The translations under genes and the position numbers were made by a program. The notes below the pieces were generated by a model, which was given only the letters and a program-made list of their open reading frames with translations, did not search any database and had not been told where the DNA came from. 64,000 nucleotides of DNA from Argopecten irradians (Eukaryota > Mollusca > Bivalvia > Pectinida > Pectinidae), in NCBI RefSeq assembly GCF_041381155.1, contig NC_091134.1:38833338-38897337 (forward strand), read 5' to 3'. Position 1 is the stretch's first letter. Each line of letters starts with the position of its first letter. Of this stretch, positions 1 through 59,613 are shown in pieces.

Positions 1-71
1 ACAAAACTATGACGTTACAATGCATTATGGCGCGCAAAGGCATACACAATGTTAGTGAAATATCTGCGACA
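1..71 (-). mobile_element. BEL/Pao element, 3' LTR (cut by window edge)
   Basis: These 71 bases match the outer part of the repeat at 5439-5509 with one mismatch. On the minus strand the repeat starts TGTCGCAG, the expected TG start of an LTR. The rest of the 3' LTR lies left of the window, so its target-site copy cannot be read. The near-identity of the two LTR copies points to a recent insertion. Confidence 0.85.
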
Positions 72-5352: not shown

Positions 5353-5509
5353 TGTTGTGCGTAATGAGAGACTTGAAAAAGCCGTGTTAGTTCATGGTTT
5401 ATTCGTTCTACAAGTAATAACGTTACAAACGTGACGTCACAAAGCTATGACGTTACAATGCATTATGGCGCGCAAAGGCATACACAATGTTAGTGAAATA
5501 TCTGCGACA
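5353..5509 (-). mobile_element. BEL/Pao element, 5' LTR
   Basis: On the minus strand this runs from TGTCGCAG at 5509 to about ACAACA at 5353, giving an LTR near 157 bp. It contains an AATAAA-type signal near 5400. The outer 71 bases repeat at 1-71. The inner edge is inferred from the CA end directly before the TTTTGGTGCC leader. The flanking acatt (5510-5514) also occurs in the uninterrupted paralogous intron at about 6778, so it is a good candidate for one copy of the target duplication. Confidence 0.8.
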
Positions 5510-5911: not shown

Positions 5912-6055
5912 GACTAAATCCAGGAGTATCATGTCCAGTATCACCAACAAACGCCTGTAAGGACAGCTCTATATGTATTGGTGGTGTGTGTACCTGTAAC
6001 AATGGTTACTATGACAGTGATGGTCCATCAGCCAATAACGGGATATGTACTCTAA
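5912..6055 (+). CDS. Gene 1 six-cysteine (EGF/EB-like) module exon A2
   Basis: A 144-bp exon, phase 1 at both ends, with acceptor tttcaaatcag and donor gtaagt. It encodes one extracellular module starting GLNPGVSCPVSPTNACKD and continuing CTCNNGYYDS...NNGIC. The six cysteines are spaced C-x7-C-x5-C-x4-C-x-C-x16-C, which fits EGF-like folds and also the EB modules common in molluscan secreted proteins. The close CxC pair and the GYYDS segment recur in nearly every module of this cluster. Such modules normally form three disulfides and act in binding or as structural repeats outside the cell. The ligand is unknown. The exon belongs with 6278-6400, 7171-7314 and the tail exons that follow. Confidence 0.88.
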
Positions 6056-6277
6056 GTAAGTCAGATATATGTAAAAGCTTTGCATCAAATAATGAATGTC
6101 ATTCAGGGAAACAATTTTTCAATAGCAACTGACAATTACGAACAGAAAAGATCTATGTATGGAATTTATATCTTTGGATTTATATGCTCATAGACAAAGA
6201 AATCCTAGAACAGTTTTGCAAGATATTTTCGTCTAGTAAACTAACTGCTGTTTAACTCAGTGTAACTTGTTCCCCAG

Positions 6278-6400
6278 AGATCCTTCCCGGGGAGTCCTGT
6301 AACAACATCGCCAATGAATGTACAGCCTTGTCTACCTGTAGTGGGGGTATATGTACCTGTAACACAGGTTACTATGACAGTGGTGATACATGTGAATCAA
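6278..6400 (+). CDS. Gene 1 six-cysteine module exon B
   Basis: A 123-bp exon, phase 1-1, after the acceptor ttgttccccag and before gtaagt. It encodes EILPGESCNNIANECTALST followed by CSGGICTCNTGYYDSGDTC. Cysteine spacing is C-x6-C-x5-C-x4-C-x-C-x10-C, shorter between the last two cysteines than in the A2 type. It is the same module type as the array exons at 41.6-49.1 kb (EIQAGE...GCTG...NEC), so gene 1 and gene 2 share a common ancestor module. It lies between the two copies of the segmental duplication and has no second copy in the window. Confidence 0.88.
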
Positions 6401-6904
6401 GTAAGTAATGAAAGTAAATATATAACTTTAAACATAAAATTGCATATGTTGACTCTGAAGCAAAACCTCTTTCACATTCTTACGGATGCGACGCCGGTTT
6501 AACACGGTCGAAAAATTACCATGAATGCATCATTACGGATAATTTTCGTCCGTGCGAAAAACTTCTACATGTTTGTTTCTTCTCCGGGAACAAAGTGACA
6601 ATTGTTTATTGTCTTTGATCAATCAGTAAAGGTGCATGCAATCATGATTTAGAAATGAAAAAAAATGACAGATACTGCATGTATGTTGAAGTTTCTGTTC
6701 TAGATGTTTTGCGATCCAACCAAAGCCGAATACAACCTTAATATACTAGTCATATTGGTATATATATATATAGGAATACATTCTAACTTGGATTGATTCA
6801 TAAGAAGGCCTTTGTCGATCTAGCACTGAAATTGTTCAACCATACTTTCCCTAAAACTAAAATCTGTGCAAAATGTAATTATTTTTAATCAAAAATTGAC
6901 ATAG

Positions 6905-7026
6905 GAAAGGCATGTCCTTCAACACCAACAAATGCATGTAAGGACGACTCTGTGTTTTTAGAGGTGTGTGTACCTGTAACAACGGTTACTATGACTCGTC
7001 AGCTATTAGTGGGATGTGTACGGAAA
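6905..7026 (+). pseudogene. Gene 1 module exon A1', frameshifted duplicate
   Basis: A duplicate of 5637-5767 with the same one-base loss, plus a deletion of nine bases (one AGCTATGAC unit) after GGTTACTATGAC. Splice borders acatag and gtaagt are kept. At 122 bp it is again out of frame. Because both copies share the frame error, it arose before the duplication, or it reflects an exon already being skipped. Confidence 0.75.
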
Positions 7027-7170
7027 GTAAGTCAGGCTGACTAACGAACAGTTAGATCACAAAGAGTAAATAAAATTCGCTGCCTTGGAGAAGTCTCCTT
7101 GTCCTATGTACATGATATGAAAAATAAGCTAAAATTGCATCTATATTAAATCAAAATTCTCTCAAATCAG

Positions 7171-7314
7171 GACTAAATCCAGGAGTATCATGTCCAGTAT
7201 CACCAACAAACGCATGTAAGGACAACTCTGTGTGTACTGGTGGTGTGTGTACCTGTAACAATGGTTACTATGACAGCGATGGTCCGTCGGCCAATAACGG
7301 GATATGTACTCCAA
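7171..7314 (+). CDS. Gene 1 six-cysteine module exon A2'
   Basis: A 144-bp phase 1-1 exon, duplicate of 5912-6055. It encodes GLNPGVSCPVSPTNACKD then NSVCTGGVCTCNNGYYDSDG and NNGICTP. All six cysteines are intact. Against its twin, several differences change amino acids in the third-to-fourth cysteine loop (SSICIGG to NSVCTGG). This is the last module before the C-terminal tail: its final base joins CT of the exon at 8750 to make a Thr codon. Confidence 0.88.
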
Positions 7315-26406: not shown

Positions 26407-27728
26407 CTTGCTGGGTATATCAATTTGGGTATACATAATGTGACAAAACTAGAAATTTTGACACAAGCTGTTAATCATTCTAACAGTAAAAATAAGCATT
26501 GTAATATCAAAAAACAAAGCATCAAAATAAAGTTTGTATGCTCTTCTTAAAAACAAATCAGAAAAAATGAAACACACCAAGCAACACATGTCATAAAGGA
26601 GAAATCTGTGTGTATTGGTATCAATTTGGGTACAATGACGTTATAGTTACATGTTTCTGCTATTTCATTTCCAATACCTGTAATTGGGAAATTCTTACAG
26701 CATTTGCATTAATTTAAGGATCATTGAAAAAAGAAAATTAAAGGAAATCTAACTGATTTAGTTTTTTTAGCTCACCTGGCCTGAAGGGCCGGTGAGCTTA
26801 TGTCATGGCGCGTCGTCCGTACGTCCGTTAACATTTAATTTAAATCGCTACTTGTCCTAGAGTTCTGCATGGATTGTGACCAAATTTGGCCACAAATATC
26901 CTTGGGTGAAGGGGAACAGAACTTGTATAAATTTTGTCTCTGACCCCCCAGGGGCAGGAGGGGCGGGGTCCAATAGGGGAAATAGAGGTACGGTAAACCT
27001 CCGGTTAATTCGAACCGCCGGATAGTTCGAACACGCAAATTTTTCCAGAAAAACGGTAATTTTTTAGCTTGTGATAGTTCGAACACTGACTTTTTATAAT
27101 CAATCCTATTTCGGATAGTTCGAACACGTCAAATTATGAACGTAAAAGTAAGATTTTTGTCGGCAAATCGGCGCAATGGGGTCCCCAAAAATGGTGATAT
27201 ATTTGCATATTGCAACAGTTTTGGTGTTTGGAATAAAGATTGTATAAATGATCATTATAATGACCACATGACAGATAATTAATGAACATTTTAAGCCATA
27301 AATAAAAATAATTTATGCCGATATATCGTACACAAATGTTTAATCTTAGGCCCAGACAATGTATATTTGAATTCGCTGTACCTGATGGAAACACGTGGAA
27401 GAAATCGCCAATGTTTGTTAAGTTCAATCTAGATACGGATATCAGTTTAAGTCATTTTCTGTGGTTTAAATAAAGTTTCTATCTCAGTTAACGGACGTCG
27501 ATGTAAATTATAGGTCGCATCGTGAACGGTGCTGTTTGGGGCCTTGTCCACGTGCACGTATGCATGCGGCTTCTGCTACGCAATTAAATATGAATTCACA
27601 AATTAAATGCCCATGTTTATGAAGAAAATGATTGAATATATTATCTTCAGGAAACTAAATACTTACCCGATAGATTTTCTGCCTTACATTGCTTATGCCT
27701 GGTACATCGGTACTCAAAACTGATTTTT

Positions 27729-29830
27729 AGCTCACCTGGCCCGAAGGGCCGGTGAGCTTATGTCATGGCGCGGCGTCCGTCGTCCGTCGTCCGTCTGTCG
27801 TCCGTCCGTCGTCCGTCCGTCCGTCTGTCCGTCAACATTTCCTTTAAATCGCTACTAGTCATAGAGTTCTGCATGGATTGTAACCAAATTTGGCCACAAG
27901 CATCCTTGGGGGAGGGGGAACAGAACTTGTATAAATTTTGGCTCTGACCCCCGGGGGCAGGAGGGGCGGGGCCCAATAGGAGAAATAGAGGTAAATCCTA
28001 TAAATCGCTACTAGTCATAGAGTTTTGAATGGAATGTAACCAAATTTGGCCACAAACATCCTTGGGGGAGGGGGAACAGAACTTGTATAAATTTTGGCTC
28101 TGACCCCCCGGGGGCAGGAGGGGCGGGGCCCAATAGGAGAAATAGAGGTAAATCCTATAAATCGCTACTTGTCCTACAGTTCTGCATGGATTGTAACCAA
28201 ATTTGGCCACAAACATCCTTGGGGGAGAGGGAACAGAACTTGTATAAATTTTGGCTCTGATCCCCCAGGGGCAGGAGGGGCGGGGCCCAATAGGGGAAAT
28301 AGAGGTAAAACCTTTAAATCGCTACTTGTCCTAGAGTTCTGAATGGAATGTAACCAAATTTGGCCACAAACATCCTTGGGGGAAGGGGAACAGAACTTGT
28401 ATAAATTTTGGCTCTGGTCCCCCGGGGGCAGGAGGGGCGGGGCCCAATAGGGGAAATAGAGGTAAATCCTTTAAATCGCTACTAGTCATAGAGTTCTGAA
28501 TGGAATGTAACCAAATTTGGCCACAAACATCCTTGGGGGAAGGGGAACAGAACTTGTATAAATTTTGGCTCTGACCCCCCGGGGGCAGGAAGGGCGGGGC
28601 CCAATAGGAGAAATAGAGGTAAATCCTTTAAATCGCTACTAGTCATAGAGTTCTACATGAATTGTAACCAAATTTGACCACAAACATCCTTGGGGAAAGG
28701 GGAACACAACTTGTATAAATTTTGGCTCTGACCCCCCGGGGGCAGGAGGGGTGGGGCCCAATAGGGGAAATAGAGATAAATCCTTTAAATCGCTACTAGT
28801 CATAGAGTTCTGCATGGATTGTAACCAAATTTGGCCATAAACATCATTGAGGGAAGGGGAACAGAACATGTATAAATTTTGGCTCTGACACCCCGGGGGC
28901 AGGAGGGGTGGGGCCCAATAGGGGAAATAGAGATAAATCCTTTGAATCGCTACTAGTCATAGAGTTCTACATGGATTGTAATCAAATTTGGCCACAAACA
29001 TCCTTGGGGGAAGGGGAACAGAACTTTTATAAATTTTGGCTCTGGCCCCCCGGGGGCAGGAAGGGTGGGGCCCAATATATATATAGGGGAAATAGAGTTA
29101 AATCCTTTAAATCGCTACCAGTCATAGAGTTCTGGATGGATTGTAACCAAATTTGGCCATAAACATCATTGAGGGAAGTGGAACACAACTTGTATAAATT
29201 TTGGCTCTGACCCCCCGGGGGCGGGAGGGGTGGGGCCCAATAGGGGAAATAGAGATAAATCCTTTAAATCGCTACTAGTCATAGAGTTCTGCATGGATTG
29301 TAACCAAATTTGGCCATAAACATCATTGAGGGAAGGGGAACAGAACACTTATAAATTTTGGCTCTGACACCCCGTGGGCAGGAGGGGCGTGGCCCAATAG
29401 GGGAAATAGAGGTAAATCCTTTAAATCGCTATTAGTCATAGAGTTCTGGATGGATTGTAACCAAATTTGGCCACAAACATCCTTGGGGGAACGGGAACAG
29501 AACTTGTATAAATTTTGGCTCTGACACCCCGGGGGCAGGAGAGGTGGGGCCCAATAGAAGAAATAGAGGTAAATCCTTTAAATCGCTACTTGTCATAGAG
29601 TTCTGCATTGAATGTAACCAAATTTGGCCACAAACATCCTTTTTGGAAGGGAAACAGAACTTGTATAAATTTTGGCTCTGGCCCCCCGGGGGCAGGACGG
29701 GTGGGGCCCAATAGGGGATTTAGAGGTTAATATTAAAATTCCTTCAGAAAAAAAACAATGAACCTGTATTCAGAACATTACTTGGCATTACAAACCAGGT
29801 GAGCGATACAGGCCCTCTGGGCCTCTTGTT
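27729..29830 (+). mobile_element. AGCTCACC element 3 (inside the MITE)
   Basis: Complete copy: 30-base start hairpin, long gtcc/cgtc simple repeat (27770-27832), about twelve 157-bp units, and the gggcctcttgtt end. One unit carries an 8-base tata expansion near 29077. Units are closer to each other than in element 2. Confidence 0.9.
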
Positions 29831-29869
29831 ACCGATTTCAACTCGGATAGTTCGAACTCACGATTTTTT

Positions 29870-31933
29870 AGCTCACCTGGCCCGAAGGGCCGGTGAGCTT
29901 ATGTCATGGCGCGGCGTCCGTCGTCCGTCCGTCGTCCGTCGTCCGTCGTCCGTCTGTCCGTCAACATTTCCTTTAAATCGCTACTAGTCATAGAGTTCTG
30001 CATGGATTTTAACCAAATTTGGCCAGAAACATCCTTGGGGGGAGGGGAACAGAACTTGTATAAATTTTTGCTCTGACCCCCCGGGGACAGGAGGGGCGGG
30101 GCCCAATAGGGGAAATTGAGGTAAATCCTATAAATCGCTACTTGTCCTAGAGTTCTGCATGGATTGTAACCAAATTTGGCCAGAAACATCCTTGGGGGAA
30201 GTGGAATAGAACTTGTATAAATTTTGGCTCTGACCCCCCCGGGGACAGGAGGGGCGGGGCCCAATAGGGGAAATAGAGGTAAATCCTATAAATCGCTACT
30301 TGTCCTAGTGTTCTGCATGGATTGTAACCAAATTTGGCCAGAAACATCCTTGGGGGAAGGGGAACAGAACTTGTATAAATTTTGGCTCTGACCCCTCGGG
30401 GACAGGAGGGGCGGGGCCCAATAAGGGAAATTTAGATAAATCCTATAAATCGCTACTTGTCCTAGAGTTCTGCATGGATTGTAACCAAATTTGGCCAGAA
30501 ACATCATTGGGGGAAGGGAATCAGAACTTGTATAAATTTTGGCTCTGACCCCCCGAGGACAGGAGGGGCGGGGCCCAATAGGGGAAATTAAGGTAAATCC
30601 TATAAATCGCTACTTGTCCTAGAGTTCAGCATGGATTGAAACCAAATTTGGCCAGAAACATCCTTGGGGGAAGGGGAATAGAACTTGTATAAATTTTGGC
30701 TCTGAACCCCCGGGGACAGGAGGGGCGAGGCCCAATAGGGGAAATAGAGGTAAATCCTATAAATCACTACTTGTCCTAGTGTTCTGCATGGATTGTAACC
30801 AAATTTGGCCAGAAACATCCTTGGGGGAAGGGGAACAGAACTTGTATAAATTTTGGCTCTGACCCCCCAGGGACAGGAGGGGCGGGGCCCAATAAGGGAA
30901 ATTGAGGTAAATCCTATAAATCGCTACTTGTCCTAGAGTTCTGCATGGATTGTAACCAAATTTGGCCAGAAACATCCTTGGGGGAAGGGGAACAGAACTT
31001 GTATAAATTTTGGCTCTGACCCCCCGGGGACAGTAGGGGCAGGGCCCAATAGGGGAAATAGAGGTAAATCCTATAAATCGCTACTTGTCCTAGAGTTCTG
31101 CATAGATTGTAACCAAATTTGGCCAGAAACAACCTTGGGGGAAGGGGAATAGAACTTGTATAAATTTTGGCTCTGACCCCCCGGGGACAGGAGGGGCGGG
31201 GCCCAATAGGGGAAATTTAGGTAAATCCTATAAATTGCTACTTGTCCTAGAGTTCTGCATGGATTGTAACCAAATTTGGCCAGGACCATCCTAGGGGGAA
31301 GGGGAACAGAACTTGTTTAAATTTTTGCTCTGACCCCCTGGGGACAGGAGGGGCGGGGCCCAATAGGGGAAATAGAGGTAAATCCTATAAATCGCTACTT
31401 GTCCTAGAGTTCTGCATGGATTGTAACCAAATTTGGCCAGAAACTTTCTTAGGGGAATAGGAACAGAACTTATATAAATTTTGGCTCTGACCCCCCGGGG
31501 GCAGGAGGGGCGGGCCCAATAGGGGAAATAGAGGTAAATCCTATAAATCGCTACTTGTCCTAGAGTTCAGCATGGATTGAAACCAAATTTGGCCAGAAAC
31601 ATTCTTGGGGGAAGGGGAATAGAACTTGTATAAATTTTGGATCTGACCCCCTGGGGGCAGGAGGGGCGGGGCCCAATAGGGAAATTTAGGTAAATCCTAT
31701 AAATCGCTACTAGTCTTAGAGTTCTGCTTGGATTTTAACCAAATTTGGCCCAGAAACATCCTTGGGGTTAACAGAATTCCTATAATTTTTGGCTCTAACC
31801 CTCTTGAGCAGAAAGAGTGGGGCCCAATAGGGGAATTAGAGGTAAATATTCAAATTTCTTCAGAAAAGAAACAATGAACCTTACTAGGCATTACAAACCA
31901 GGTGAGCGATACAGGCCCTCTGGGCCTCTTGTT
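29870..31933 (+). mobile_element. AGCTCACC element 4 (inside the MITE)
   Basis: Complete copy with start hairpin, gtcc tract, about twelve units at regular 157-bp spacing and the gggcctcttgtt end. Only 39 bases of MITE separate it from element 3. Its core subtype (ggccagaaacatccttgg, ggggacaggagg) differs from element 3 (ggccacaaacatcc, gggggcaggagg), so the two are independent insertions rather than one tandem copy. Confidence 0.9.
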
Positions 31934-33364
31934 CCTGAAGCTTAATTTCGGATAATTCGAACTGGTCCATCAATATCTATTTAATTTTGTTCGAAATAAC
32001 CGAAGGTTTACCGTAAATCCTATAAATCGCTACTTGTCCTAGAGTTCTGCATGGATTGTAACCAAATTTGGCCACAAACATCGTTGGAGGAAGGGGAACA
32101 GAACTTGTATAGATTTTGGCTCTGACTCCCCGGGGCAGGAGGGGCGGGGTCCAATAGGGGAAATAGAGGTAAATCCTATAAATCGCTACTTGTCCTAGAG
32201 TTCTGCATGGATTGTAACCAAATTTGGCCACAAACATCCTTGGGGGAAGGGGAACAGAACTTGTATAAATTTTGGCTCTGACCCCCCGGGGGCTGGAGGG
32301 GCGAGGCCCAATAGGGGTAATAGAGGTAAATCCTATAAATCACTACTTGTCCTAGAGTTCTACATGGATTTTAACCAAATTTGGCCTCAAACATCCTTTG
32401 GGGAAGGGGAATAGAACTTGTATAAAGTTTGGCTCTGACCCCAGGGGACAGGAGGGGTAGAGCCCAATAGGGGGATATAGAGGTAAATCCTATAAATCGC
32501 TACTTTGTCCTAGAGTTCTACATGGATTGTAATCAAATTTGGGTCACAAATATCATTGGGAAAAGGGGAACAGAAACCTGTGTAAATTTTGGCTCTGACC
32601 CCCTGGGGGCAGGAGGTGCGTGGGCCCAATAGGGGAAATAGAGGTTAATCCTTTTAAAATCACTACCTAGTCATAGAGTTCTGCATGGAATGTAACCAAA
32701 ATTTGGCCAGAAACATCCTTAGGGGAAGGGGAACAGAGTTTTGTATCAATTTTGGCTCTGACTAGCCCCCAGGGGGCAGTAGGGGCGGGGCTCAATAGGG
32801 GAAATAGAGGTTAATCCTTTAAATCGCTACTAGTCATATATTTCTGCATGGAATGTAACCAAATTTAGGCAGAAACATTCTTGAGGTAAGGGGAACAGAG
32901 TGTGTATAAATTTTGGCTCTGATCACCCCAAGGGCAGGAGGTGCGGGACCCAATTAGGGGGAATAGGAGGTTAATCCTTTAAAACGCTACTAAATTTGGC
33001 CAGAAATATCTTGGGGGAAGGGGAACAGAGTTTGTATCAATTTTGGCTCTGACTAGCCCCAGGGGGCAGTAGGGGCGGGGTCTCAATAGGAGGAAATAGA
33101 GGTTAATCCTTGAAATTTGCTACTAGCTATAGAGTTCTGCGTGGATTGTTACTAATTTGGCCAGAAACATCCTCTGGGGAATGGGAACAGAGTTTGTATA
33201 AATTTTGGCTCTGACCCCCTGGAGCAGAAAGAGTAGGGCCCAACAAGGAATTTAGAGGTAAATCTTTAAAATTCCTTCAGAAAAGAAACAATGATCCTGT
33301 ATTGAGAACATTATCTGGCATTACAAACCAGGTGAGCGATACAGGCCATCTGGGGCCTTTGTTT

Positions 33365-34059: not shown

Positions 34060-34209
34060 ATAGTTTTTGTTGTTCAGTGGAGGATGTAAGGCAGATGTTG
34101 GTACAGCCTGTTACAGACACCACTAACTGTACTACAGGGGAGGTCTGTAATGGTTCATCATGTGTCTGTGATACAACTCATTACCAGAATGGTGTTAACT
34201 GCCTGGAAA
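34060..34209 (+). pseudogene. Gene 2 N-terminal cysteine-rich exon, frame-disrupted
   Basis: It aligns along its length with the intact minus-strand exon 59445-59613. Shared parts include the upstream acceptor tract, TTCAGTGGAGGATGTAAGGC, the GEVC...CVCDT region and the end HYQNG..CLE before gtaagt. Relative to that exon it has an extra T in an early T run and another extra T in cctgTtacag, and it lacks some codons in the middle. Entered in phase 0 (as required by the signal exon at 19822) it hits a stop after nine codons. A phase-1 entry is open throughout but loses the first cysteines. Either the exon is dead, or the two extra Ts are sequencing errors and it encodes GGCKADVGTACTDTTNC followed by TTGEVCNGSSCVCDTTHYQN. 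Confidence 0.7.
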
Positions 34210-41252: not shown

Positions 41253-41570
41253 AAATATTCATTTTCAACCTAAGCCTCCAATCTTCCTTCTGAATCATTA
41301 TTGCTGGTACATTGAAGTGAATGATCTTAACCTACTTTTATAAGTCATCAAATATTTCAAAAACTTACAGTTTCAACCATTAAGGCCTATTAGAGTCTCC
41401 TGTTTCTCAAAAGTAAAGCATCTAGTTCTATTCATTTGGTTCTATTCATGAAGCTGTAAAAAGACATGATTGAAAGCCTGGTGTCTGAGGTAATCATTAC
41501 AGGGATACTTAACTTTGCAATGTAAATAATTGTATTACATTTGTAAATATTCATTTCCAACTACTACCAG

Positions 41571-41696
41571 AAATCCAGGCTGGTGAGACAGGTTGTACAG
41601 GTATAACCAATGAGTGTACTGCCATGTCTACCTGTACCGGGAACCAATGTATCTGTATCAGTGGTTACTATGACAGTGGTGCTGTCTGTTCTCTTC
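41571..41696 (+). CDS. Gene 2 array module exon 1
   Basis: 126 bp, phase 1-1. Encodes EIQAGETGCTGITNECTAMS followed by TCTGNQCICISGYYDSGAVC and SL. The six cysteines have the spacing of exon B of gene 1 (C-x6-C-x5-C-x4-C-x-C-x10-C). Acceptor cactaccag-like (ctactaccag), donor cgtaagt. An extracellular EGF/EB-like module; ligand unknown. Confidence 0.88.
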
Positions 41697-43030
41697 GTAA
41701 GTTTTTAGTTCATTTTCATAAACTAACCGTCTGTATGTAGTACAAGACTAATGCTTCAACCACTTGTAATCAGGTTTGTTTTTGGTTTATTATAGAAATA
41801 TAATGATAATGGACATCAAATCAGACAAATGGGTTTAGCTGTACAAAAATTATGATATTATTATTATAAAGAGATTGCTTAAGACAATTATTAAGGGATT
41901 GACACTATAAAAACCCTTCAGTGTCGAAGTTTCCGGTAGACTAGAAATTTGATTAAAATCTGATGACTATTATAGAATAAGAGCTAGAATTAATTCATTA
42001 TTCATTAGGATTTTGCTGCAGGACTGTTGGCCTATATATAATAAGTTACTGTGCTATAATTATATAATGTCTATTTAAGCTTTAACTTAATTCTCCATAA
42101 TCGAAAGCCCCAGGTTACTGATATTTTGCCTGTAGCCTTGATGGGATGAGGGTTACAGAGTTTGTTCAAACGAATTGGTACCTTTACATATATATATACA
42201 TTTAACGTCACAGGGGTCTAAAAAACTAAAATCCATCCTACAGGACTTCTTGGCAATAAATAAGAGCTCTTGAGAGACCTGATATTTGGCCTGTAGTATA
42301 TATGCTTGCATTAAATTTGTTCAAGTGCATACCTGTCAGCTTTCAGGAATTGCAATGCGGGAGAAAGGACATATGAGCAAAATTTTCAACAGTCCAACTG
42401 AGGCGCTACACGTCGCTTATCATTATTACTTGTGATGTTTTAGCATATTAAACCCTGTTTATCTTTAGAAAATAACATGGGATGGAAATATTTCTTGAAT
42501 GAATAAGCTTATTTTTATATCCTATCAGTTGAAAAACTTGTATCTTTAACATCAAAAGTTTTTATCATGTAAAATAACATTTGTGTAATTAATCAAGTGT
42601 AGAAGGAGAAGGAGAAAAGGGTTCTGATAATATATTCTTGTTGCGACCTCAAATATTGAAACAATTGGATCCATGTGTTGAAGTTACATCTTCAAAAAAT
42701 ATGTTTCGTCTGTATCTGTGCTTGTTTTCTTTCACTTTCAATCTCCTTCTGAATCATTATTGCTGGTACATTGAAGGGAATGATCTTAACCTACTTTTAT
42801 AAGTCATCAAATATATAAAAAAAACTTAAGTTTCAACCATTAAGGCCTATTAGAGTCTCCTGTTTCTCAAAAGTAAAGCATCTAGTTCTATTCATTTGGT
42901 TCTATTCATGAAGCTGTAAAAAGACATGATTGAAAGCCTGGTGTCTGAGGTAATCATTACAGGGATACTTAACTTTGCAATGTAAATAATTGTATTACAT
43001 TTGTAAATATTCATTTCCAACTACTACCAG

Positions 43031-43168
43031 AAATCCAGGCTGGTGAGACAGGCTGTGCAGGTATAGCCAATGAGTGTACTGCCATGTCTACCTGTACCGG
43101 GAACCAATGTATCTGTATCAGTGGTTACTATGACAGTGGTGCTCTGTGGTGTGCTGTCTGGTCTCTTC
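43031..43168 (+). CDS. Gene 2 array module exon 2, variant end
   Basis: 138 bp, still phase 1-1. Identical in style to exon 1 (EIQAGETGCAGIANECTAMS) up to GYYDSGA. A 12-base in-frame insertion (ctgtggtgtgct) then changes the end to LWCAVWSL. The usual last cysteine becomes Trp (TGT to TGG), while the insertion supplies a new cysteine three residues earlier. The count of six is kept, with altered spacing. Confidence 0.8.
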
Positions 43169-44515
43169 GTAAGTTTTTAGTTCATTTTCATAAACTAACC
43201 GTCTGTATGTAGTACAAGACTAATGCTTCAACCACTTGTAATCAGGTTTGTTTTTGGTTTATTATAGAAATATAATGATAATGGACATCAAATCAGACAA
43301 ATGGGTTTAGCTGTACAAAAATTATGATATTATTATTATAAAGAGATGTTTAAGACATTTATTAGGGGATTGACACTATAAAAACCCTTCAGTGTCGAAG
43401 TTTCCGGTAGACTAGAAATTTTATGAAATCTGATGACTATTATAAAATAAGAGCTAGAATTAATTCATTATTCATTAGGATTTTGCTGCAGGACTGTTGG
43501 CCTATATATAATAAGTTAATGTGCTATAATGTCTATTTAAGCTTTAACTTAATTCTCCATAACCGAAAGCCCCAGGGTACTGATATTTTGCCTGTAGCCT
43601 TGACGGGATGAGGGTTACAGAGTTTGTTCAAACGAATTGGTACCTTTACATATATACATACATTTAACGTCACAGGGGTCTAAAAAACTAAAATCCTTAC
43701 ATGACTTCTTGGCAATAAATAAGAGCTCTTGAGAGACCTGATATTTGGCCTGTAGTATATATGCTTGCATTAAATTTGTTCAAGTGCATACCTGTCAGCT
43801 TTCAGGAATTGCAATGCGGGAGAAAGGACATATGAGCGAAATTTTCAACAGTCCAACTGAGGCGCTACACGTCGCTTATCATTATTACTTGTGATGTTTT
43901 AGCATATTAAACCCTGTTTATCTTTAGAAAATAACATGGGATGGAAATATTTCTTGAATGAATAAGCTTATTTTTATATCCTATCAGTTGAAAAACTTGT
44001 ATCTTTAACATCAAAAGTTTTTATCATGTAAAATAACATTTGTGTAAGCTTAATCAAGTGTAGAAGAGAAGGAGAAAAAGGGTTCTGATAATATATTCTT
44101 TAGCTTGCGACTTCGTCATCAAATATTGAAACAATTGGATCCATGTGTTGAAGTTACATCTTCAAAATATGTTTCGTCTGTATCTGTGCTTGTTTTCTTT
44201 CACTTTCAATCTCCTTCTGAATCATTATTGCTGGTACATTGAAGGGAATGATCTTAACCTACTTTTATAAGTCATCAAATATATAAAAAAAACTTAGTTT
44301 CAACCATTAAGGCCTATTAGAGTCTCCTGTTCTCGCAAAAAGTAAAGCACATCCTAGGTTCTATTCTTTTGGTTATATTCATGAAGCTGTAAAAAAGGAC
44401 ATGATTTGATAAAGCCTGGTGATCCTCTAGGTGAAATCATTACAGGGATACTTAACTTTGCAATGTAATAATTGTATTACTATTTGTAAAATATTCATTT
44501 CCAACTAATACCAAG

Positions 44516-44652
44516 AAATCCAGGGCTGGTGAGGCACAGGATTGTACAGGTAATGTGATAAGCCAATGAGTGTACTGCCATGTCTACCTGTACCGGGAAC
44601 CAATGTATCTGTAACAGTGGTTACTATGACAGTGGTGCTGTCTGTTCTCTTC
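44516..44652 (+). pseudogene. Gene 2 array module exon 3, many small indels
   Basis: 137 bp against 126 in intact copies. Extra bases are scattered through the first third (cagggctgg, gaggcacagg, ggtaatgtgata) and the acceptor reads ccaag. The second half, from GAGTGTACTGCCATG, matches the other copies exactly. The frame is lost if read as given. The surrounding intron shows the same peppering of insertions, which suggests read error more than biology. Confidence 0.75.
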
Positions 44653-45985
44653 GTAAGTTTTTAGTTCATTTTCATAAACTAACCGTCTGTATGTAGTACA
44701 AGACTAATGCTTCAACCACTTGTAATCAGGTTTGTTTTTGGTTTATTATAGAAATATAATGATAATGGACATCAAATCAGACAAATGGGTTTAGCTGTAC
44801 AAAAATTATGATATTATTATTATAAAGAGATGTTTAAGACATTTATTAGGGGATTGACACTATAAAAACCCTTCAGTGTCGAAGTTTCCGGTAGACTAGA
44901 AATTTTATGAAATCTGATGACTATTATAAAATAAGAGCTAGAATTAATTCATTATTCATTAGGATTTTGCTGCAGGACTGTTGGCCTATATATAATAAGT
45001 TACTGTGCTATAATTATATAATGTCTATTTAAGCTTTAACTTAATTCTCCATAATCGAAAGCCCCAGGTTACTGATATTTTGCCTGTAGCCTTGATGGGA
45101 TGAGGGTTACAGAGTTTGTTCAAACGAATTGGTACCTTTACATATATACATACATTTAACGTCACAGGGGTCTAAAAAACTAAAATCCTTACAGGACTTC
45201 TTGGCAATAAATAAGAGCTCTTGAGAGACCTGATATTTGGCCTGTAGTATATATGCTTGCATTAAATTTGTTCAAGTGCATACCTGTCAGCTTTCAGGAA
45301 TTGCAATGCGGGAGAAAGGACATATGAGCGAAATTTTCAACAGTCCAACTGAGGCTAGCATACACGTCGCTTATCATTATTACTTGTGATGTTTTTAGCA
45401 TATTAAACCTGTTTATCTTTAGAAAATAACATGGGATGGAAATATTTCTTGAATGAATAAGCTTATTTTTATATCCTATCAGTTGAAAAAACTTGTATCT
45501 TTAACATCAAAAGTTTTTATCATGTAAAATAACATTTGTGTAATTAATCAAGTGTAGAAGGAGAAGGAGAAAAGGGTTCTGATAATATATTCTTGTTGCG
45601 ACCTCAAATATTGAAACAATTGGATCCATGTGTTGAAGTTACATCTTCAAAATATGTTTCGTCTGTATCTGTGCTTGTTTTCTTTCACTTTCAATCTCCT
45701 TCTGAATCATTATTGCTGGTACATTGAAGGGAATGATCTTAACCTACTTTTTATAAGTCATCAAATATATCAAAAAAAACTTAGTTTCAACCATTAAGGC
45801 CTATTAGAGTCTCCTGTTTCTCAAAAGTAAAGCATCTAGTTCTATTCATTTGGTTCTATTCATGAAGCTGTAAAAAGACATGATTGAAAGCCTGGTGTCT
45901 GAGGTAATCATTACAGGGATACTTAACTTTGCAAATGTAAATAATTGTATTACATTTGTAAATATTCATTTCCAACTACTACCAG

Positions 45986-46113
45986 AAATCCAGGCTGGTG
46001 AGACAGGCTGTACAAGGTATAGCCAATGAGTGTACTGCCATGTCTACCTGTACCGGGAACCAATGTATCTGTATCAGTGGTTACTATGACAGTGGTCGCT
46101 GTCTGTTCTCTTC
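45986..46113 (+). pseudogene. Gene 2 array module exon 4, two 1-base insertions
   Basis: 128 bp. An extra A (gtacaAggtat) and an extra C (agtggtCgctg) relative to the 126-bp copies put it out of frame between the first cysteine and the last. All else matches. Sequencing error and genuine decay are both possible. Confidence 0.78.
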
Positions 46114-47442
46114 GTAAGTTTTTAGTTCATTTTCATAAACTAACCGCTGTATGTAGTACAAGACTAATGCTTCAAACCACTTGTAATCAGGTTTGTTTTT
46201 GGTTTATTATAGAAATATAATGATAATGGACATCAAATCAGACAAATGGGTTTAGCTGTACAAAAATTATGATATTATTATTATAAAGAGATGTTTAAGA
46301 CATTTATTAGGGGATTGACACTATAAAAACCCTTCAGTGTCGAAGTTTCCGGTAGACTAGAAATTTTATGAAATCTGATGACTATTATAAAATAAGAGCT
46401 AGAATTAATTCATTATTCATTAGGATTTTGCTGCAGGACTGTTGGCCTATATATAATAAGTTAATGTGCTATAATGTCTATTTAAGCTTTAACTTAATTC
46501 TCCATAACCGAAAGTACATCCCCAGGGTACTGATATTTTGCCTGTAGCCTTGACGGGATGAGGGTTACAGAGTTTGTTCAAACGAATTGGTACCGTTTAC
46601 ATATATACATACATTTAACTTCACAGGGGTCTAAAAAACTAAAATCCTTACATGACTTCTTGGCAATAAATAAGAGCTCTTGAGAGACCTGATATTTGGC
46701 CTGTAGTATATATGCTTGCATTAAATTTGTTCAAGTGCATACCTGTCAGCTTTCAGGAATTGCAATGCGGGAGAAAGGACATATGAGCGAAATTTTCAAC
46801 AGTCCAACTGAGGCGCTACACGTCGCTTATCATTATTACTTGTGATGTTTTAGCATATTAAACCCTGTTTATCTTTAGAAAATAACATAGGATAGAAATA
46901 TTTTATGAATGAATAAGCTTTTTTTTATATCCTATCAGTTGAAAAACTTGTATCTTTAACATCAAAAGTTTTTATCATGTAAAATAACATTTGTGTAATT
47001 AATCAAGTGTAGAAAGAGAAGGAGAAAAAGGTTCTGATATTATATATTCTTGTTGCGATTTCAAAATAATGAAACAATTGGATCCATTTGTGAAGTAACG
47101 TCATCAATATATGTTTCGTCTGTACCGGTACTTTTCTTCTTTCACTTTCAATCTCCTTCTGAATCATTATTGCTGGTACATTGAAGTGAATGATCTTAAC
47201 CTACTTTTATATTAAGTCATCAAATATATCAAAAACTTACAGCTTCAACCGTTAAGGCCTATGGTCTCCAGTTTCCAAAAACTAAAGCATCTCGTTCTAT
47301 TCATTTGGTTCTATTCATGAAGCTGTAAAAAGACATGATTGAAAGCCTGGTGTCTGAGGTAATCATTACAGGAACATAACTTATTTTTGCATAGTTATTA
47401 ATTCTATTGTATTTGTAAATATTCATTTCCAATTACTACCAG

Positions 47443-47568
47443 AAATCCAGGCTGGTGAGACAGGTTGTACAGGTATAACCAATGAGTGTACTGCCATGTC
47501 TACCTGTACCGGGAACCAATGTATCTGTAACAGTGGTTACTATGACAGTGGTGCTGTCTGTTCTCTTC
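47443..47568 (+). CDS. Gene 2 array module exon 5
   Basis: 126 bp, phase 1-1, intact. Same as array exon 1, but with ICNSGYYDS in place of ICISGYYDS between the fifth and sixth cysteines. The Asn form is also found in copies 3 and 6 and matches the NNG/NTG of gene 1 modules, so it is probably ancestral. The upstream intron carries a few diverged bases that copies 1-4 lack. Confidence 0.88.
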
Positions 47569-48967
47569 GTAAGTTTTTAGTTCATTTTCATAAACTAACC
47601 GTCTGTATGTAGTAAACAAGACTAATGCCTTCAACCACTTGTAATCAGGTTTGCTTTTTGGTTTATTATAGAAATATAATGATAATGGACATCAAATCAG
47701 ACAAATGGGTTTAGCTGTACAAAAATTATGATATTATTATTATAAAGAGATGCTTAAGAAACAATTATTAGCGGGATTGACACTATAAAAACCCTTCAGT
47801 GTCGAAGTTTCCGGTAGACTAGAAATTTTATTGAAATCTGATGACTATTATAGAATAAGAGCTAGAATTAATTCATTATTCATTAGGATTTTTTTGCTGC
47901 AGGGGACTGTTGGCCTATATATAATAAGTTACTGTGCTATAAATTAATAATGTCTATTTAAGCTTTTAACTTAATTCTCCATAATCGAAAGCCCCAGGGT
48001 ACTGATATTTTGCCTGTAGCCTTGATGGGATGAGGGTTACAGAGTTTGTTCAAACGAATTGGTACCTTTACATATATATATACATTTAACGTCACAGGGG
48101 TCTAAAAAACTAAAATCCTTACAGGACTTCTTGGCAATAAATAAGAGCTCTTGAGAGACCTGATATTTGGCCTGTAGTATATATGCTTGCATTAAATTTG
48201 TTCAAGTGCATACCTGTCAGCTTTCAGGAATTGCAATGCGGGAGAAAGGACATATGAGCGAAATTTTCAACAGTCCAACTGAGGCGCTACACGTCGCTTA
48301 TCATTATTACTTGTGATGTTTTAGCATATTGAACCCTGTTTATCTTTAGAAAATAACATAGGATAGAAATATTTTATGAATGAATAAGCTTTTTTTTATA
48401 TCCTATCAGTTGAAAAACTTGTATCTTTAACATCAAAAGGTTTTTAACGACATGTAAAATAACAATTTTGATTTGTTTAATTAATCAAGTGTAGAAAGCA
48501 GAAGGAGAAAAAAGGTTCTGATATTATTATATATTCTTGTTGCGACTTCAAATATTGAAACAATTGGATCCATGTGTTGAAGTTACATCTATCAAATATA
48601 TGTTTTCGTCTGTATCTGTATCTTGATTCTTCTTTTCACTTTCAATCTCCTTCTGCAATCATTGATTTGCTGGTACATTGAAGGGAATGAATCTTAACCT
48701 ACTTTTATATTAAGTCATCATCAAATATATCAAAAACTTACAGCTTCAATCCGTTATTGTAGAGTCCGTTATTAGCCTATAAGAGTCTCCTGTTTCTCAA
48801 AAGTAAGCATCTAGTTCTATTCATTTGGTTCTATTCATGAAGCTGTAAAAAAGACATGATTGAAAGCCTGGTGTCTAGAGGTAATCATTACAGGGATTAC
48901 TATAACTTTGCAATGTAAATTTAATTGTATTTACATTTGTTAAATATTTATTTCCAATTACTACCAG

Positions 48968-49093
48968 AAATCCAGGCTGGTGAGGCAGGCTGTACTGGTA
49001 TAGCCAATGAGTGTACTGCCATGTCTACCTGTACCGGGAACCAATGTATCTGTAACAGTGGTTACTATGACAGTGGTGCTGTCTGTTCTCTTC
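48968..49093 (+). CDS. Gene 2 array module exon 6
   Basis: 126 bp, phase 1-1, intact: EIQAGEAGCTGIANECTAMS then TCTGNQCICNSGYYDSGAVC. It is the last array exon. Downstream unit similarity breaks off about 150 bases later and is followed by a SINE. Confidence 0.88.
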
Positions 49094-49243
49094 GTAAGTT
49101 TTTAGTTCATTTTCATAAACTAACCGTCTGTATGTAGTATAACAAGACTAATGCTTCAACCACTTGTAATCAGGTTTGTTTTTGGTTTATTATAGAAAAT
49201 AATGATAATGACATCAAATCAGACAAATGGGTTTGCTGTACAT

Positions 49244-49450
49244 CATATTATCAGATGCAGAATGGGTTTATGCACTGGTCGCGAGTTCGAATCCTATATG
49301 GGGCTAGTTGTCAGGGTTATCTGACCGCTGGTCGGGTATGGTTTTTAGCGTCCAGGTATTACCTCCTACCAACTAAGTACCCTGAACGTCCTTAACTCTG
49401 ACCCTGGTTTATAGGACGTTAAACCTTCAAACCCAAACCCAACTCAAACC
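49244..49450 (+). mobile_element. tRNA-derived SINE copy
   Basis: A B-box-like gcgagttcgaatcctat lies near the start. The mid part is gtcgggtatggtttttagcg and the 3' end is gaccctggtttataggacg, ttaaacc. This matches the layout of 49845-50113 in the opposite orientation. It sits right at the end of the exon array. Nothing is seen from 49451 to 49844. Confidence 0.65.
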
Positions 49451-50113: not shown

Positions 50114-51836
50114 CTCTACATTACATATTCCCGAGGAACAACTAGAAAAATTGAATTTGTAATACTAATACAGCTCAGCTCTGAATGGATTATAAAAATT
50201 CAAATTCCAATACCTCTAAAGAGCAAACTATCTGATGCAACGCAATGCACATGGATTTAATAACCATAATTACTAAACAAATAGAATATGTACAATTAGT
50301 ATGAGAAGAAGGAAGGGAACATCCACCATCAAAGGCTTACTATATTGTGTAGTTATTGTATTTTGATTGAGTAGTTGGGATTAAAATCTCTGCCTTTAAA
50401 TCTTTTTCTTAACAAAGAGCATGTAAGGGTGTATGAACCAGCAAAACAACACCAAATCCAAAATCTTATATTTATCCTTCACTGGCTGATAATACTGGAG
50501 ACCAATAAGGAACATTGTTGCTTACTGCGTTTCCGCTGTTATTATTATGTTACAGTCTCCTCAGGTTTACAGAAAGTGTGTAGGTTATTCCTAATGGATC
50601 GATAATGTCACTCAGTTACCCGTTCTTCAGATGTATTCGCATTCGTACACAGAGGGTTACGAGGCTAACATGGGACCTTAACTGTTTAGAGTGCGACATA
50701 TATTACCAAGTCGCAGATACTTATATGTGTGTATGAAAATCATTGTGAATTGTGAATAGATAAGAAGGCCTTTGCTTCTTTGACTCATGGTGCGAACCTT
50801 TTTGTCCGAAACTAACTACGGTCAAATCAATAATTGGACATCAAATAAATGGGATTTAGGGGGACATATTTGATGTTATTATAAAGAGATGTTCTAGAGA
50901 CATTGTATATTGGATTAATACTTTAAAAAACACACTTCCTTGAAAGTTTATTATCAAAGGAACCCATGGGGGCATGTGAGGGGCCAAGGCTCCAATAGAG
51001 GTCAATTTGTGTAATAATTCATTATTGCTATCTAATACTTTCTTCTCTCGCAAAGTTACTAAATGGATTTTCGCTGTATGACATGTATATTGTTTGTAGT
51101 ATTCTTTATGATGGTGTTGGGAGTTTCTAAATATGTTACAAATGCGTTGGGCAAAACCTCCTCCCCCAGGGCTTAATAGGGTGGGCCAAAGGGGTATACA
51201 ATACTTGCGGTCATTATAGCAATAAAATGTCTTATTCCCTGAAAGTTGAGTGAATCTATCTGATACGTCATCTGGGATGTTAATGGTTTTGCTGACATCA
51301 CCCAACTTCTAGCAACATTCTTGTGTTATATCACTTAAGTTATGTATGTATGCTATCTCTGACACTGGAGGTTGTGACTTCACAAAATTGTAACAAATAG
51401 TGGAAACATGGCACATTGCATGACTCATAGGTAGTGAGAAATTGATTCATAATAGTCCTGTCTAGTCAATTAGTTGGGTGTATATATCTATATGTGCTTG
51501 CATGTATAATCAATATGTACCATCCACGAGTCTGATACACTTGTCAGACAGTTTCGTAGTTATGGCCTATACCTGAATGCTAGCACTGGAAGATTTTTAT
51601 AATTGTAAAAATATTCTCATTGCTTTTCATGATATAAAATTGTCTTGAATATTTTGGTTTATGATGATCAGATAAAAGCATTTTATTTAATGTATATAAT
51701 ATATATATATAGCATATATATTGATCTCTACTGTTCTATGTATAAAATGAATGCTCTATTTTCATGTTTCTATCTGATAAGTCATGTATGAATGCATTCC
51801 AATTTATGTATATGATGTATATTAACAATATTAAGG
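50114..51836. other. Gene 2 intron part, nothing recognised
   Basis: No exon with module cysteines and no clear repeat border. A minus-strand frame of 149 codons (50856-51305) has no motif or splice context and is treated as chance. Confidence 0.45.
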
Positions 51837-52554: not shown

Positions 52555-52707
52555 TGATTACATTAAGTGGGACCTGTACTAGTAGTTTAAGTGTTACCCA
52601 GTGTCAGACGACTGGAGCTGTTTGTGCTACTGACAACAAATGTAGATGTAACCAAGGAACATTTGATAGTAACGGGTTTGGTACAGCTGATGGTACCTGT
52701 GTAGACA
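52555..52707 (+). CDS. Gene 2 six-cysteine module exon, divergent type
   Basis: 153 bp, phase 1-1, after ttgatgtttcag and before gtaagt. Encodes ITLSGTCTSSLSVTQCQTTG followed by AVCATDNKCRCNQGTFDSNG and TADGTC. The six cysteines and the CxC pair are present, but GYYDS is replaced by GTFDS and the loops differ, so it is an older branch of the same module family. No later exon of gene 2 was found before the opposite-strand gene begins. Confidence 0.8.
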
Positions 52708-55717: not shown

Positions 55718-55861
55718 GTGTAACACACATCCCATTATTGGCTGACGGACCATCACTGTCATAGTAACCAGTGTTACAGGTACACACACCACCAGAACAC
55801 ATAGAGTTATCCTTACATGCAGTTGATGGTAAAGAAGAGCATGCTTCTCCTGGATTTAGTC
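55718..55861 (-). CDS. Gene 3 six-cysteine module exon (A type)
   Basis: 144 bp on the minus strand, phase 1-1, acceptor accattctacaccag, donor gtaagtc. Encodes GLNPGEACSSLPSTACKD then NSMCSGGVCTCNTGYYDSDG and NNGMCVT. All six cysteines have A2 spacing. It is the last gene 3 exon I can find leftward. Confidence 0.87.
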
Positions 55862-56346
55862 CTGGTGTAGAATGGTTATAGTTATCAACATGCTGTTTAT
55901 TAAATGTTTACCATGCTATATAGAATAACGATAAAAATTTCTTGCACCTCGGACAAGGAAATCTCACATGGTACCCGGTGCTAGATTTTTCTATCTCGTC
56001 CGATCTGTCTGGTACCTTTACATGAATATTGGCGGAATTTTAAGCCATTCATGTAACAGTTCGTGCATGTGACGTGTCATACTCTCGAATCGGTGATGTC
56101 ACACGCGTCAGATAATCAATATTATTAGAAATTTGTGCATTCAGTCATTTACCATGCATTGTTTGGTTCTTGTTTTTAATTATGAAAACAGTAGGGTATG
56201 TACCGATTGATCATCGTTTTTCTTTGATATGACTAAACTATAGTTTTACAAGAAATGACTGCAATTGAAGTGCAGAAGAAATGGTTGATAGGCTTTGAAC
56301 CAGGAGGCCCAAAACGGGATAATTTTGCACTCTGAACGCGTATATA

Positions 56347-56572
56347 GATTGAGTTTGTTATATCATAGAGGCGTGAGAAATAAAATCTATTATCTTTAAG
56401 TGATCAAGATCGGGTTATCTCAGTCTCGGGCTAAGGTTTGGTAATGTCCTAACTTCGGCTAACGCCTCGGCTGGGATTATGTTACAAAATCTTAGCCCTC
56501 AACTGAGATAACCCGATCTCGATCACTTACAGGTAACAGATTTTATTAATCTAGTGATTGATCTCAATCTAG
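56347..56572. mobile_element. Foldback MITE
   Basis: The arms gattgag...aaaatctattatc...aagtgatcaagatcggg, ttatctcagtctcgggctaa are mirrored by ttagccctcaactgagataa, cccgatctcgatcactt...gattttattaatc...ctcaatc. About 95-bp arms with small indels, loop about 35 bp. It lies in the intron between gene 3 exons. The rest of that intron (55862-56346, 56573-57018) shows nothing. Confidence 0.7.
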
Positions 56573-57018
56573 CCAGGTCAAAGGATTTTAATAACGAGAC
56601 TTCTAATATAGGGAGATCCCAAAAAGATCTAAAAAAGAGGTAAATTTAAAACACTTGAGATATCATAATCCAATATAGCTGTCAGTCATATTTTGTATGA
56701 TAGCTGTCAGAAAACTATAGGTACATGTACTAGTAAGAGGACACTACCAATGCAATATGAAGATTATTGGGATGACTCGATTGATATCCCTCCCTACTTT
56801 GAGAAATTGCAGAAACAAGATTTTTTTTTAGGATGCACATGTACATATAGACCCAAACAAAAGATGATTTGACAAGCCCACTGTCTGATGATAGAGGACA
56901 AATAAATAGACATTTTATAAAGTTTAGTAAGTTATTATCATTATTTGCCTTATATGTGATCTTTAACTACAGCATCAATTGTTTGTTAGGTAAGGCTGAT
57001 CAACATTTCCTGACTTAC

Positions 57019-57162
57019 TTGGAGTACATGTACCACTACTGGCTGACGAACCATCACTGTCATAGTACCCGTTGTTACAGGTACACACATTATTGTTACA
57101 CATAGAGTTATCCTTACAGGCGTTTGTTGGTGATACTGAACATGATACTCCTGGATTTAGTC
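57019..57162 (-). CDS. Gene 3 six-cysteine module exon (A type)
   Basis: 144 bp, phase 1-1, acceptor aacctttctacaccag, donor gtaagtc. Encodes GLNPGVSCSVSPTNACKD then NSMCNNNVCTCNNGYYDSDG and SSGTCTP. Close to the gene 1 A2 exons, with NNN instead of GG in the third-to-fourth cysteine loop. Confidence 0.87.
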
Positions 57163-59444
57163 CTGGTGTAGAAAGGTTATCATCATGCAGTTTAATAAAT
57201 GTTTACCATGATGTAAAGAATATAGTCTAAGCAGATGAACATCAGAACTCAGGTTCTCTATAAACTATAGAAAATAAATGATCGGTGACCAGATTGACAT
57301 TGAAACTATATGTTTAGAAATCAAAAATTCATTTTTATACACATAATGCATGCATTAGATGGAAAAATATTTTTCCTATCTAAATGAAAGTGTGTTTTAT
57401 GGTAATAATGTATTTTAAAACAACTGAACATAGACGCTTAGTTTCAAACTAAAGAGCAAGATCTCCGAAAGATCTTGGTACCATCCATTTTATTATTAGA
57501 CAATAGCAAATGTTAAGTTTTCCCTTATTAACAGGAAGATTTTTTACCTCAACATTTGATTACCACAAGGAAACTGCCCATAAAATCAACTATTCTAGAT
57601 ATATATAATGTTATAGAAGCAAAACACTTTAAACTATTCTAGATATATATAATGTTATAGAAGCAAAACACTTTAAATGTTTTGATTATCTGCTTGCATT
57701 GCTGTCAGCCATATTTGGTATGATAGCTAGCGCTGTTCTAATTTAACCAGCTAGGGACGTACCAATAGGTCCGTGCTGGGGAAAGTTACCAGTTCGCTCA
57801 TCCAAACGAGTAGTGGATTTGACCATAGGAAAGTAAATATTGACAGCACTGCACTTGTTCATCAGACAGGCACAAATTACTGACACCAATCAAATTTGAC
57901 TTGGATCTTCTATAAGTCATGTTACATTTATCACTAAATATATACTTCTTTTACTGTTTCTTAGAAATATGATAGAAAATAATAAGCTTCCACGTTCTGC
58001 ATCATTCATGAAAATGAATTCCCGAATTTTGTTTTCAATACAATGCAGTTAAATCTAAATAACTAAATGAATTAATTCCAGCTCTAATTTTATTAGTTTT
58101 TTCAATACACTAATTATTAATATAATGAAAGATGCAAGTAATAAACACAATTAAGTATTTATATTTACACCCCCCCCCCTTCCAAACTACTCAAGAATGG
58201 TTGAAGGTTTCTTTATTGGTATTGGAAAATACAAGGCACATATACTCAGTGTTTTTTTCACTTACAATTTTCAACAGCCCATGCCTTTTCAATTGGGAAA
58301 ATAACTCGGAATTTGGAGGAAATTGGGAAAAAGTGTAAAAATATTCAAAATCACTTGCCCCGGGCAAGTAGAGCCCAATAATTCACTTGCAATTACCCAA
58401 AATTAAATTCCACTTGCCCCCCAAAAAATACCATTTTTTCTTACCGCAGTACTGTACTTATTAGAAAATTGAAAATCAAAAACTTTAGAATTATCTAATA
58501 AACATTTCTAATTCTATTTCACAAGATGTTTTCCTTCTATTATTAGAAGAAAAATAAAACAATTAATTTGAAACACTATTTGTATTTTTAAAACTTTTTT
58601 TTTGTTTCTCTATCATTTTTTTTTTAAATTCCTGAATTCCGGAAACCGGATTCCGGCTCCATTATTAGATACCAAGTGCTACTTCCTACCTTGAACAGAG
58701 ATCGTTTTTACACAAGAAAAACTCCATGCTTATGTCGAAAAAAAATAATTAGACGACTAATAATGTAAGTTAACTCTGGAAACATTGTTGTATTACTTAA
58801 AAGCAGTTGACTATTGTTTTTATTAGCTTGAATGTCTGTAAAACGTCTCTGAACTGAAGGTGCACCTAGCGACCTAGTTATGCTCATTTCGATTTTGTTT
58901 TCATTTTGTGAAATAAAAATTGTTTCTGATCCCAAATGTTTTGTTTTAAGTAATGTAAACTAGTCTATATTTACACATTTTAGGAATGAAAATCTGGTTC
59001 AAATCATCAACACAAATGTCATTGAATTTGATCAGTTTTTATTGGGAAATTTGACTTCAAAATTGGGGAAATAAGGCATTTTTTGGCTAGGGGAAACAGC
59101 CGAAGTTCGGCTGAAGATTTGGCCAAAAAAAACCACTGATACTGGTATATGCAAATATGTCCCAGCATTATTACAGTAGGAAAGACTATGCAAATCTCAA
59201 AGTCACATATATATCTTACATGTATATACATGCAGTCTATACTGTTAACATCCTATAATATAAATAATGCATTTTATCATACAGAGGTCATACAGAGGTC
59301 CTATGTATAATATGATGGATGTCTGATCATGGTGCAATACATGTACAAGAGTAATTAAAATAATATAATGAGCACAAGCCTACAATTTAGTGTCCATGCT
59401 GATGAGACAATCATGTATCTTATAAAGATCTGCAAATAACTTAC
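57163..59444 (-). other. Gene 3 intron
   Basis: AT-rich. It contains a 44-bp tandem duplication (57588-57675), a C11 run near 58170, and cacttgcccc / cttgccccgggcaag repeats around 58350-58430. No exon recognised. Confidence 0.5.
57588..57675. repeat. 44-bp tandem duplication
   Basis: The unit aactattctagatatatata...caaaacactttaaa-type occurs twice head to tail without mismatch, in a gene 3 intron. Confidence 0.85.
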
Positions 59445-59613
59445 TTTCCAGACAAGTACTTCCATTTTGGTAATGAGTCGATGTGTCACAAACACATGTT
59501 GAAGATCCAGTATCACAGACCTCCCCTGCAGCTGTAGTACAGTTACTTGGATCACCCTCAGTACAGGGTGTACCAACATCTGCCTTACATCCTCCACTGA
59601 ACAACAAAACTGT
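59445..59613 (-). CDS. Gene 3 N-terminal cysteine-rich exon
   Basis: 169 bp on the minus strand, phase 0 in, phase 1 out, acceptor ttttttctttctacag, donor gtaagtt. Encodes TVLLFSGGCKADVGTPCTEG then DPSNCTTAAGEVCDTGSSTC and VCDTSTHYQNGSTC. The seven cysteines include a CxC pair. TVLLFSGG looks like the second half of a signal peptide, to be completed by a phase-0 first exon such as 19822-19872. No such exon was seen upstream on this strand. Alternatively translation starts at an in-frame ATG at 59635-59637, just before the acceptor (MHTFFFLQTVLLFSGG), which also looks like a signal peptide and would make the acceptor unused. Its damaged twin is 34060-34209. Confidence 0.8.

Follow-up and report, generated by a model that had tools for sequence, protein, structure and literature searches.

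We found a tandem array in which a 126-nt EB-like exon, phase 1 at both ends, is repeated together with its intron. The array lies in the window, by which we mean the whole stretch of 64,000 nt that was analysed (C1:38833338-38897337, in a genome of 845.8 Mb). The source is most likely the bay scallop, although a close congener would also fit. One striated-muscle myosin exon of the genome is identical to a solved scallop myosin at 107 of 107 residues, a match that outscores two other solved molluscan myosins; the best entries are from Argopecten irradians. The large contigs among the search matches carry the numbers C1 to C16, and Argopecten has n = 16. It is likely that the exon and intron were duplicated together inside one extracellular-protein gene of a cluster of EB and FN3 exons. 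The array would have grown by unequal exchange between its units. Because an exon of phase 1-1 leaves the flanking frame intact, gain or loss of a whole exon would be tolerated, and the number of modules in the protein would change to match. Much of the damage seen in the copies is probably consensus error.

A tandem array of exon-intron units

The array and its exons, the latter delimited by their splice borders, are listed here in window coordinates.

41279..49242, + strand: tandem array of five full units of ~1.46 kb and a partial sixth (unit query, self-match and six-unit alignment)
41571..41696, + strand: exon of unit 1 (126 nt), encoding a clean module with six cysteines
43031..43168, + strand: exon of unit 2 (138 nt), frame kept, 12 nt added around the last cysteine
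44516..44652, + strand: exon of unit 3 (137 nt), out of frame in the assembly, with stops
45986..46113, + strand: exon of unit 4 (128 nt), out of frame in the assembly, with stops
47443..47568, + strand: exon of unit 5 (126 nt), encoding a clean module
48968..49093, + strand: exon of unit 6 (126 nt), encoding a clean module

When unit 5 (47135-48600) is used as the query, the other five units match it at 94.0, 92.8, 91.8, 91.5 and 89.2% identity over 1456, 1480, 1488, 1501 and 623 aligned columns, respectively. Moreover, 42739-49242 aligns to 41279-47721 as a single piece with 93.7% identity. Successive exon starts, calculated from the exon coordinates, are 1460, 1485, 1470, 1457 and 1525 nt apart, and in the six-unit alignment the sixth unit is a 595-nt part that includes the exon. 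The length and identity of the unit matches rule out chance. With the surroundings of private indels masked, substitution divergence is 1.5-3.4% among units 1-5 and 3.5-6.8% between unit 6 and the others. The copies are young.

The first-pass annotation had proposed that a phase 1-1 exon is being multiplied in tandem with its intron. The unit alignments and splice borders bear out the arrangement, and the youth of the copies, together with further tandem arrays elsewhere in the gene family (see below), agrees with multiplication of exons. Exon and intron, which it described as nearly identical, align over the whole length of the units, but the likeness is uneven, with unit 6 standing apart from units 1-5.

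All six exons have the donor GTAAGT, and the acceptor is CCAG in five and CAAG in unit 3. The exons are phase 1 at both ends, with the same splice borders and phase in five of the six units and nearly the same in the sixth. The exons of units 1, 5 and 6 each encode a clean 42-residue module with six cysteines. Thus, the six in-frame cysteine modules that had been claimed exist as six tandem copies, but not as six open frames: instead of the intact, frame-neutral exon per unit expected of an array of the LPA kind, we found, in the sequence as assembled, three clean exons, one that is altered but in frame and two that are broken.

A comparison of dN and dS across units was uninformative, as units 1, 5 and 6 differ at 5 codons (three amino-acid-changing and two silent differences). 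When the array is compared with the two paralogous exons nearest to it, dN/dS comes to 1.26 and 0.61, values that depend on a single silent change and on two, respectively. The comparison with the S-type exon at 6298 gives a dS of 0.56 and a dN of 0.22. These values say nothing firm about selection.

Damaged exons and the quality of the consensus

Differences that are private to one unit are strongly biased toward insertions. Counted as alignment columns, there are 133 insertion and 9 deletion columns; counted as events, there are 44 insertions and 9 deletions. If insertions and deletions were equally frequent, 44 insertions in 53 events would be surprising (p 1.2e-6). As a control, we used the four full units of a neighbouring array with a 1.28 kb unit, in which we counted 3 insertion and 5 deletion events (Fisher p 0.012 for the contrast between the arrays). 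The insertion rate is 5.5 per kb in the six-unit array versus 0.6 per kb in the control. Our first impression from the alignment was that the insertions occur in patches. We dropped this idea and claim only the excess, since the events, with a variance/mean ratio of 0.74-1.57 over bins of 50 columns, show no clear clumping, which speaks against a simple patch model.

Given this excess, much of the damage in units 2-4 is probably long-read consensus error. Such error would fit the gap filling with ~20x PacBio reads that the report on a published bay-scallop draft describes (PMC7090048), although that draft may not be the assembly used here. Because consensus error is likely, both the count of six units and the number of intact exons are provisional.

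Relationship of the module to EB

The typical EB module has eight conserved cysteines. The array module has six, and when ten modules from the window are aligned, four of the cysteine columns do not vary. When the unit 5 module is concatenated three times, the resulting sequence, which is not a natural one, scores 33.6 bits with Pfam EB (PF01683), for which the cut-off is 24.3. In a genome-wide search that scored 150 of 195 candidates, Pfam EB gave 17 matches, among which a single array module does not appear; other cluster exons exceed the cut-off in this search.

The array module matches two minus-strand exons, at C1:38764253 and 38765393, at 82 and 78%. At the DNA level, the best pairs of an array exon with a paralogous exon of the same type (S, below) are ~94% identical over 143-150 nt, which is the likeness expected within one family. 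The two exons nearest to the array module (C1:38764253-38765500) have damaged 3′ ends: one is without the last cysteine and the donor, and the other is frame-shifted.

The gene around the array

The array lies within a cluster of ~250 kb, in which EB-like exons occur on both strands with FN3 exons interspersed. In 264 kb, a locus HMM built from 14 modules gave 107 EB-like rows with an E value of at most 0.01. In window coordinates these rows extend from -86.8 to 163.9 kb, and 16 of them are within the window. The splice scorer proposed a phase 1-1 exon for 67 of the 107 rows. The donor cut-off left the six array exons among the remaining 40, and we inspected these six directly instead. In 304 kb there are 13 FN3-like rows. 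Pfam fn3 confirmed all three FN3-like exons tested, two of them among the 13. None of the 13 rows is within the window on either strand, so there we found no FN3 exon that could belong to the same gene as the array.

In the better-kept paralogs, the exon order is G, S modules, L, D, FN3, E, alternating L and S, F, FN3 and F′, where the letters denote exon types. The strand of the array has G, the six S exons and D, and the next EB-like row appears only at 148 kb. The neighbours of the array are as follows.

34060..34209, + strand: candidate first module exon (type G), 150 nt, open; first third frame-shifted relative to two paralogs
52555..52707, + strand: EB-like exon that follows downstream (type D; 153 nt), open, phase 1-1 (HMM, splice scorer)
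55725..59589, - strand: facing gene with three EB-like exons, L 55725-55841, L 57026-57142 and G 59449-59589 (HMM, splice scorer)

A search for signal-peptide exons produced one candidate upstream of the facing gene and none upstream of the array.

With a frame-shifted G exon and no EB-like row after D until 148 kb, the gene around the array is incomplete as seen and may be broken. The array could therefore be real DNA in a truncated, decaying paralog, where pseudo-exons multiply without altering any protein. We judge this explanation less probable than not, but give it real weight. In its favour are the broken units 3 and 4, the altered unit 2, the frame-shifted G exon and the lack of an FN3-like exon in the window, where the paralogs continue after D with FN3 and E. 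The exons closest to the array module are themselves damaged, and the 1.28 kb array multiplies a broken exon alongside good ones. Decay does not easily explain why units 1, 5 and 6 are clean and have intact splice sites or why the D exon is open, and private changes that are mostly insertions suggest consensus error more than decay. We therefore prefer duplication within a gene whose array was probably misread in part.

We set aside a reading of these genes as a receptor tyrosine phosphatase family. A terminal FN3 exon is present at five sites, and only at one of them is there an exon between the terminal FN3 and phosphatase exons; the phosphatase exons concerned are at C1:39.03 Mb, downstream of one FN3 series. 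For the array gene, no link to phosphatase exons was found. On contig C6, many protein-tyrosine-phosphatase exons are among the matches listed, which suggests a large local expansion. At several paralogs, the second half of the terminal FN3 exon is tandemly repeated behind that exon, at the following positions.

~171330-172700 (window coordinates): repeated FN3 half-exon
C1:38697156-38697952: repeated FN3 half-exon
C1:38741588-38742066: repeated FN3 half-exon

Other tandem arrays in the family

The cluster contains at least two tandem exon arrays besides the one with six units. The first is the 1.28 kb array, which extends from about -6 kb to 7.3 kb, has three exons per unit (an L, an S and a third that is broken), and is interrupted by a BEL/Pao retrotransposon. 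Its last copies are in the window.

5932..7307, + strand: last copies of the 1.28 kb EB-like exon array, which starts ~6 kb left of the window (HMM, self-match)

The second has a unit of ~5.9 kb and lies on the minus strand at 98.9-118 kb; its copies 1 and 2 differ by 0.7%.

A further array lies outside the cluster. At C1:62655996-62697703 on the + strand, EB and FN3 matches alternate in two regular series. The EB matches listed number 33, of which 22 are spaced by ~921 bases and 11 by ~1.77 kb, and the 34 FN3 matches listed fall into the same two series (23 and 11). Judged from the positions of these matches, the array is much longer than the six-unit array. Given that the family has several tandem arrays, exon multiplication is a habit that recurs in it.

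Possible length variation and copy number

The array might vary in length between individuals, and its length would then fix the size of a secreted protein that acts in recognition or in the matrix. The divergence of units 1-5 is low, the family has several arrays, and the modules and FN3 exons are of extracellular types, all of which is consistent with variation. However, when the best 40 of 973 candidates were scored, the six-unit array was present at one location of the assembly, and a second copy with another number of units was not found. We regard variation of this kind as doubtful. A broader version of the idea is that EB/FN3 proteins encoded by tandem exon arrays at several loci, with module numbers that change so quickly that individuals differ, form an LPA-like length-variable set whose longest member has ~33 EB/FN3 units; this is a comparably tentative proposal.

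It is unlikely that the copy number is an artefact of the assembly, with a single unit or a pair of units multiplied during gap filling or scaffolding. In favour of an artefact, insertion-rich letters are confined to the six-unit array in our comparison with the control, the gap filling mentioned above would be a possible source, and another part of the cluster has a near-identical block that breaks off at an assembly gap. Against it, the units carry consistent, differing substitutions in their clean stretches, the window has no run of N, and a paralogous gene likewise has two such exons ~1.1 kb apart. The near-identical block is in the left flank (-48043 to -44938 in window coordinates), where it ends at a run of 33 N. 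It is 98.8% identical to -15474 to -12367 and is possibly an uncollapsed second haplotype.

Relation to known systems

The tandem duplication of module exons is already known from the LPA kringles, and we regard the scallop EB/FN3 case as another example. The copy number of LPA kringle IV-2 in primates varies between people and sets the size of the protein. Like the LPA array, the scallop array consists of head-to-tail units of a module exon and its intron, with near-identical copies and exons of frame-neutral phase. The scallop module is EB-like, however, and variation and its effect on protein size are established for LPA only. A second relevant class is that of old genes with repeated modules, for example those that encode matrix proteins rich in EGF or FN3. 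These also have one module per phase 1-1 exon, but the introns between their repeats have diverged, whereas exon and intron are both alike in the scallop array.

Growth of proteins module by module is mostly known from such old arrays. The scallop case is more than routine in that one family of one genome has several arrays, which differ in the length of their units. Copies that still match in their introns are present at several sites of this family, and the animal is farmed. Pedigrees and populations could thus be used to measure directly how fast copies are gained and lost, how far unequal exchange contributes and what becomes of broken copies.

In another bivalve, the flat oyster Ostrea edulis, EB-domain genes have been reported to expand in tandem, with 31 and 11 copies in two orthogroups (PMC9679249). 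These numbers count whole genes, whereas the scallop array multiplies exons and introns within a gene or gene remnant, with FN3 exons interspersed in the cluster. Bivalve C1q-domain genes, which also encode an extracellular-protein family, have similarly expanded by tandem duplication according to a published account (PMC6835236), again as whole genes rather than exons. A search of the literature, in part a narrow one and thus a weak negative, found no paper on EB/FN3 exon arrays in scallops.

Possible exchange between units and the edges of the array

Unequal crossing-over between units, which had been proposed in the first-pass annotation, would leave conflicting patterns of shared substitutions along the unit. 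When only gap-free columns are counted, the right end of the unit has 7 columns in which units 4 and 5 share a letter that sets them apart from the other units. Units 2 and 4 pair in this way in 4 columns in the middle of the unit, where they also have an 8-column gap in common, and units 1 and 5 do so in 4 columns. These conflicting two-way groupings fit repeated unequal exchange or conversion, but the columns are few, and we consider the trace suggestive only.

Two features bear on the edges of the array.

43787..44241, + strand: dispersed-repeat-like part of the unit, shown for unit 2 (matches on many contigs)
50825..50890, + strand: diverged, unit-like intron piece downstream of the array (match to a paralogous intron)

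Of 52 listed unit matches, 39 are outside the array and its nearest paralog; nearly all of these are over the dispersed-repeat part, with 73-90% identity. The left edge of the array is ~34 bases inside the right end of this part, which may have been the first point of exchange. The intron piece downstream is a possible older, decayed copy of the unit.

Immediately after the right edge of the array, 49243-49440 contains a tRNA-like internal promoter motif. ARAGORN predicts no tRNA at this position, and neither a tRNA scan nor an Rfam scan of the window gave a hit; the segment is perhaps a SINE.

Several other repeats accompany the cluster. The BEL/Pao-type retrotransposon occupies 1-5509 of the window and ~85 preceding bases on the minus strand. 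It has the Pfam domains Peptidase_A17, RVT_1, rve and DUF1759, and its end repeats of 157 bases are 99.4% alike. Three arrays of a 157-base satellite lie at 24521-33115, and related satellite copies occur in inverted orientation inside the 5.9 kb units (~100.0-100.9, 105.9-106.8 and 111.9-112.8 kb). Finally, at 161474-164000 in window coordinates, there is a repeat of ~100 bases with half an EB-like module per copy, which seems to be a minisatellite that grew out of an exon.
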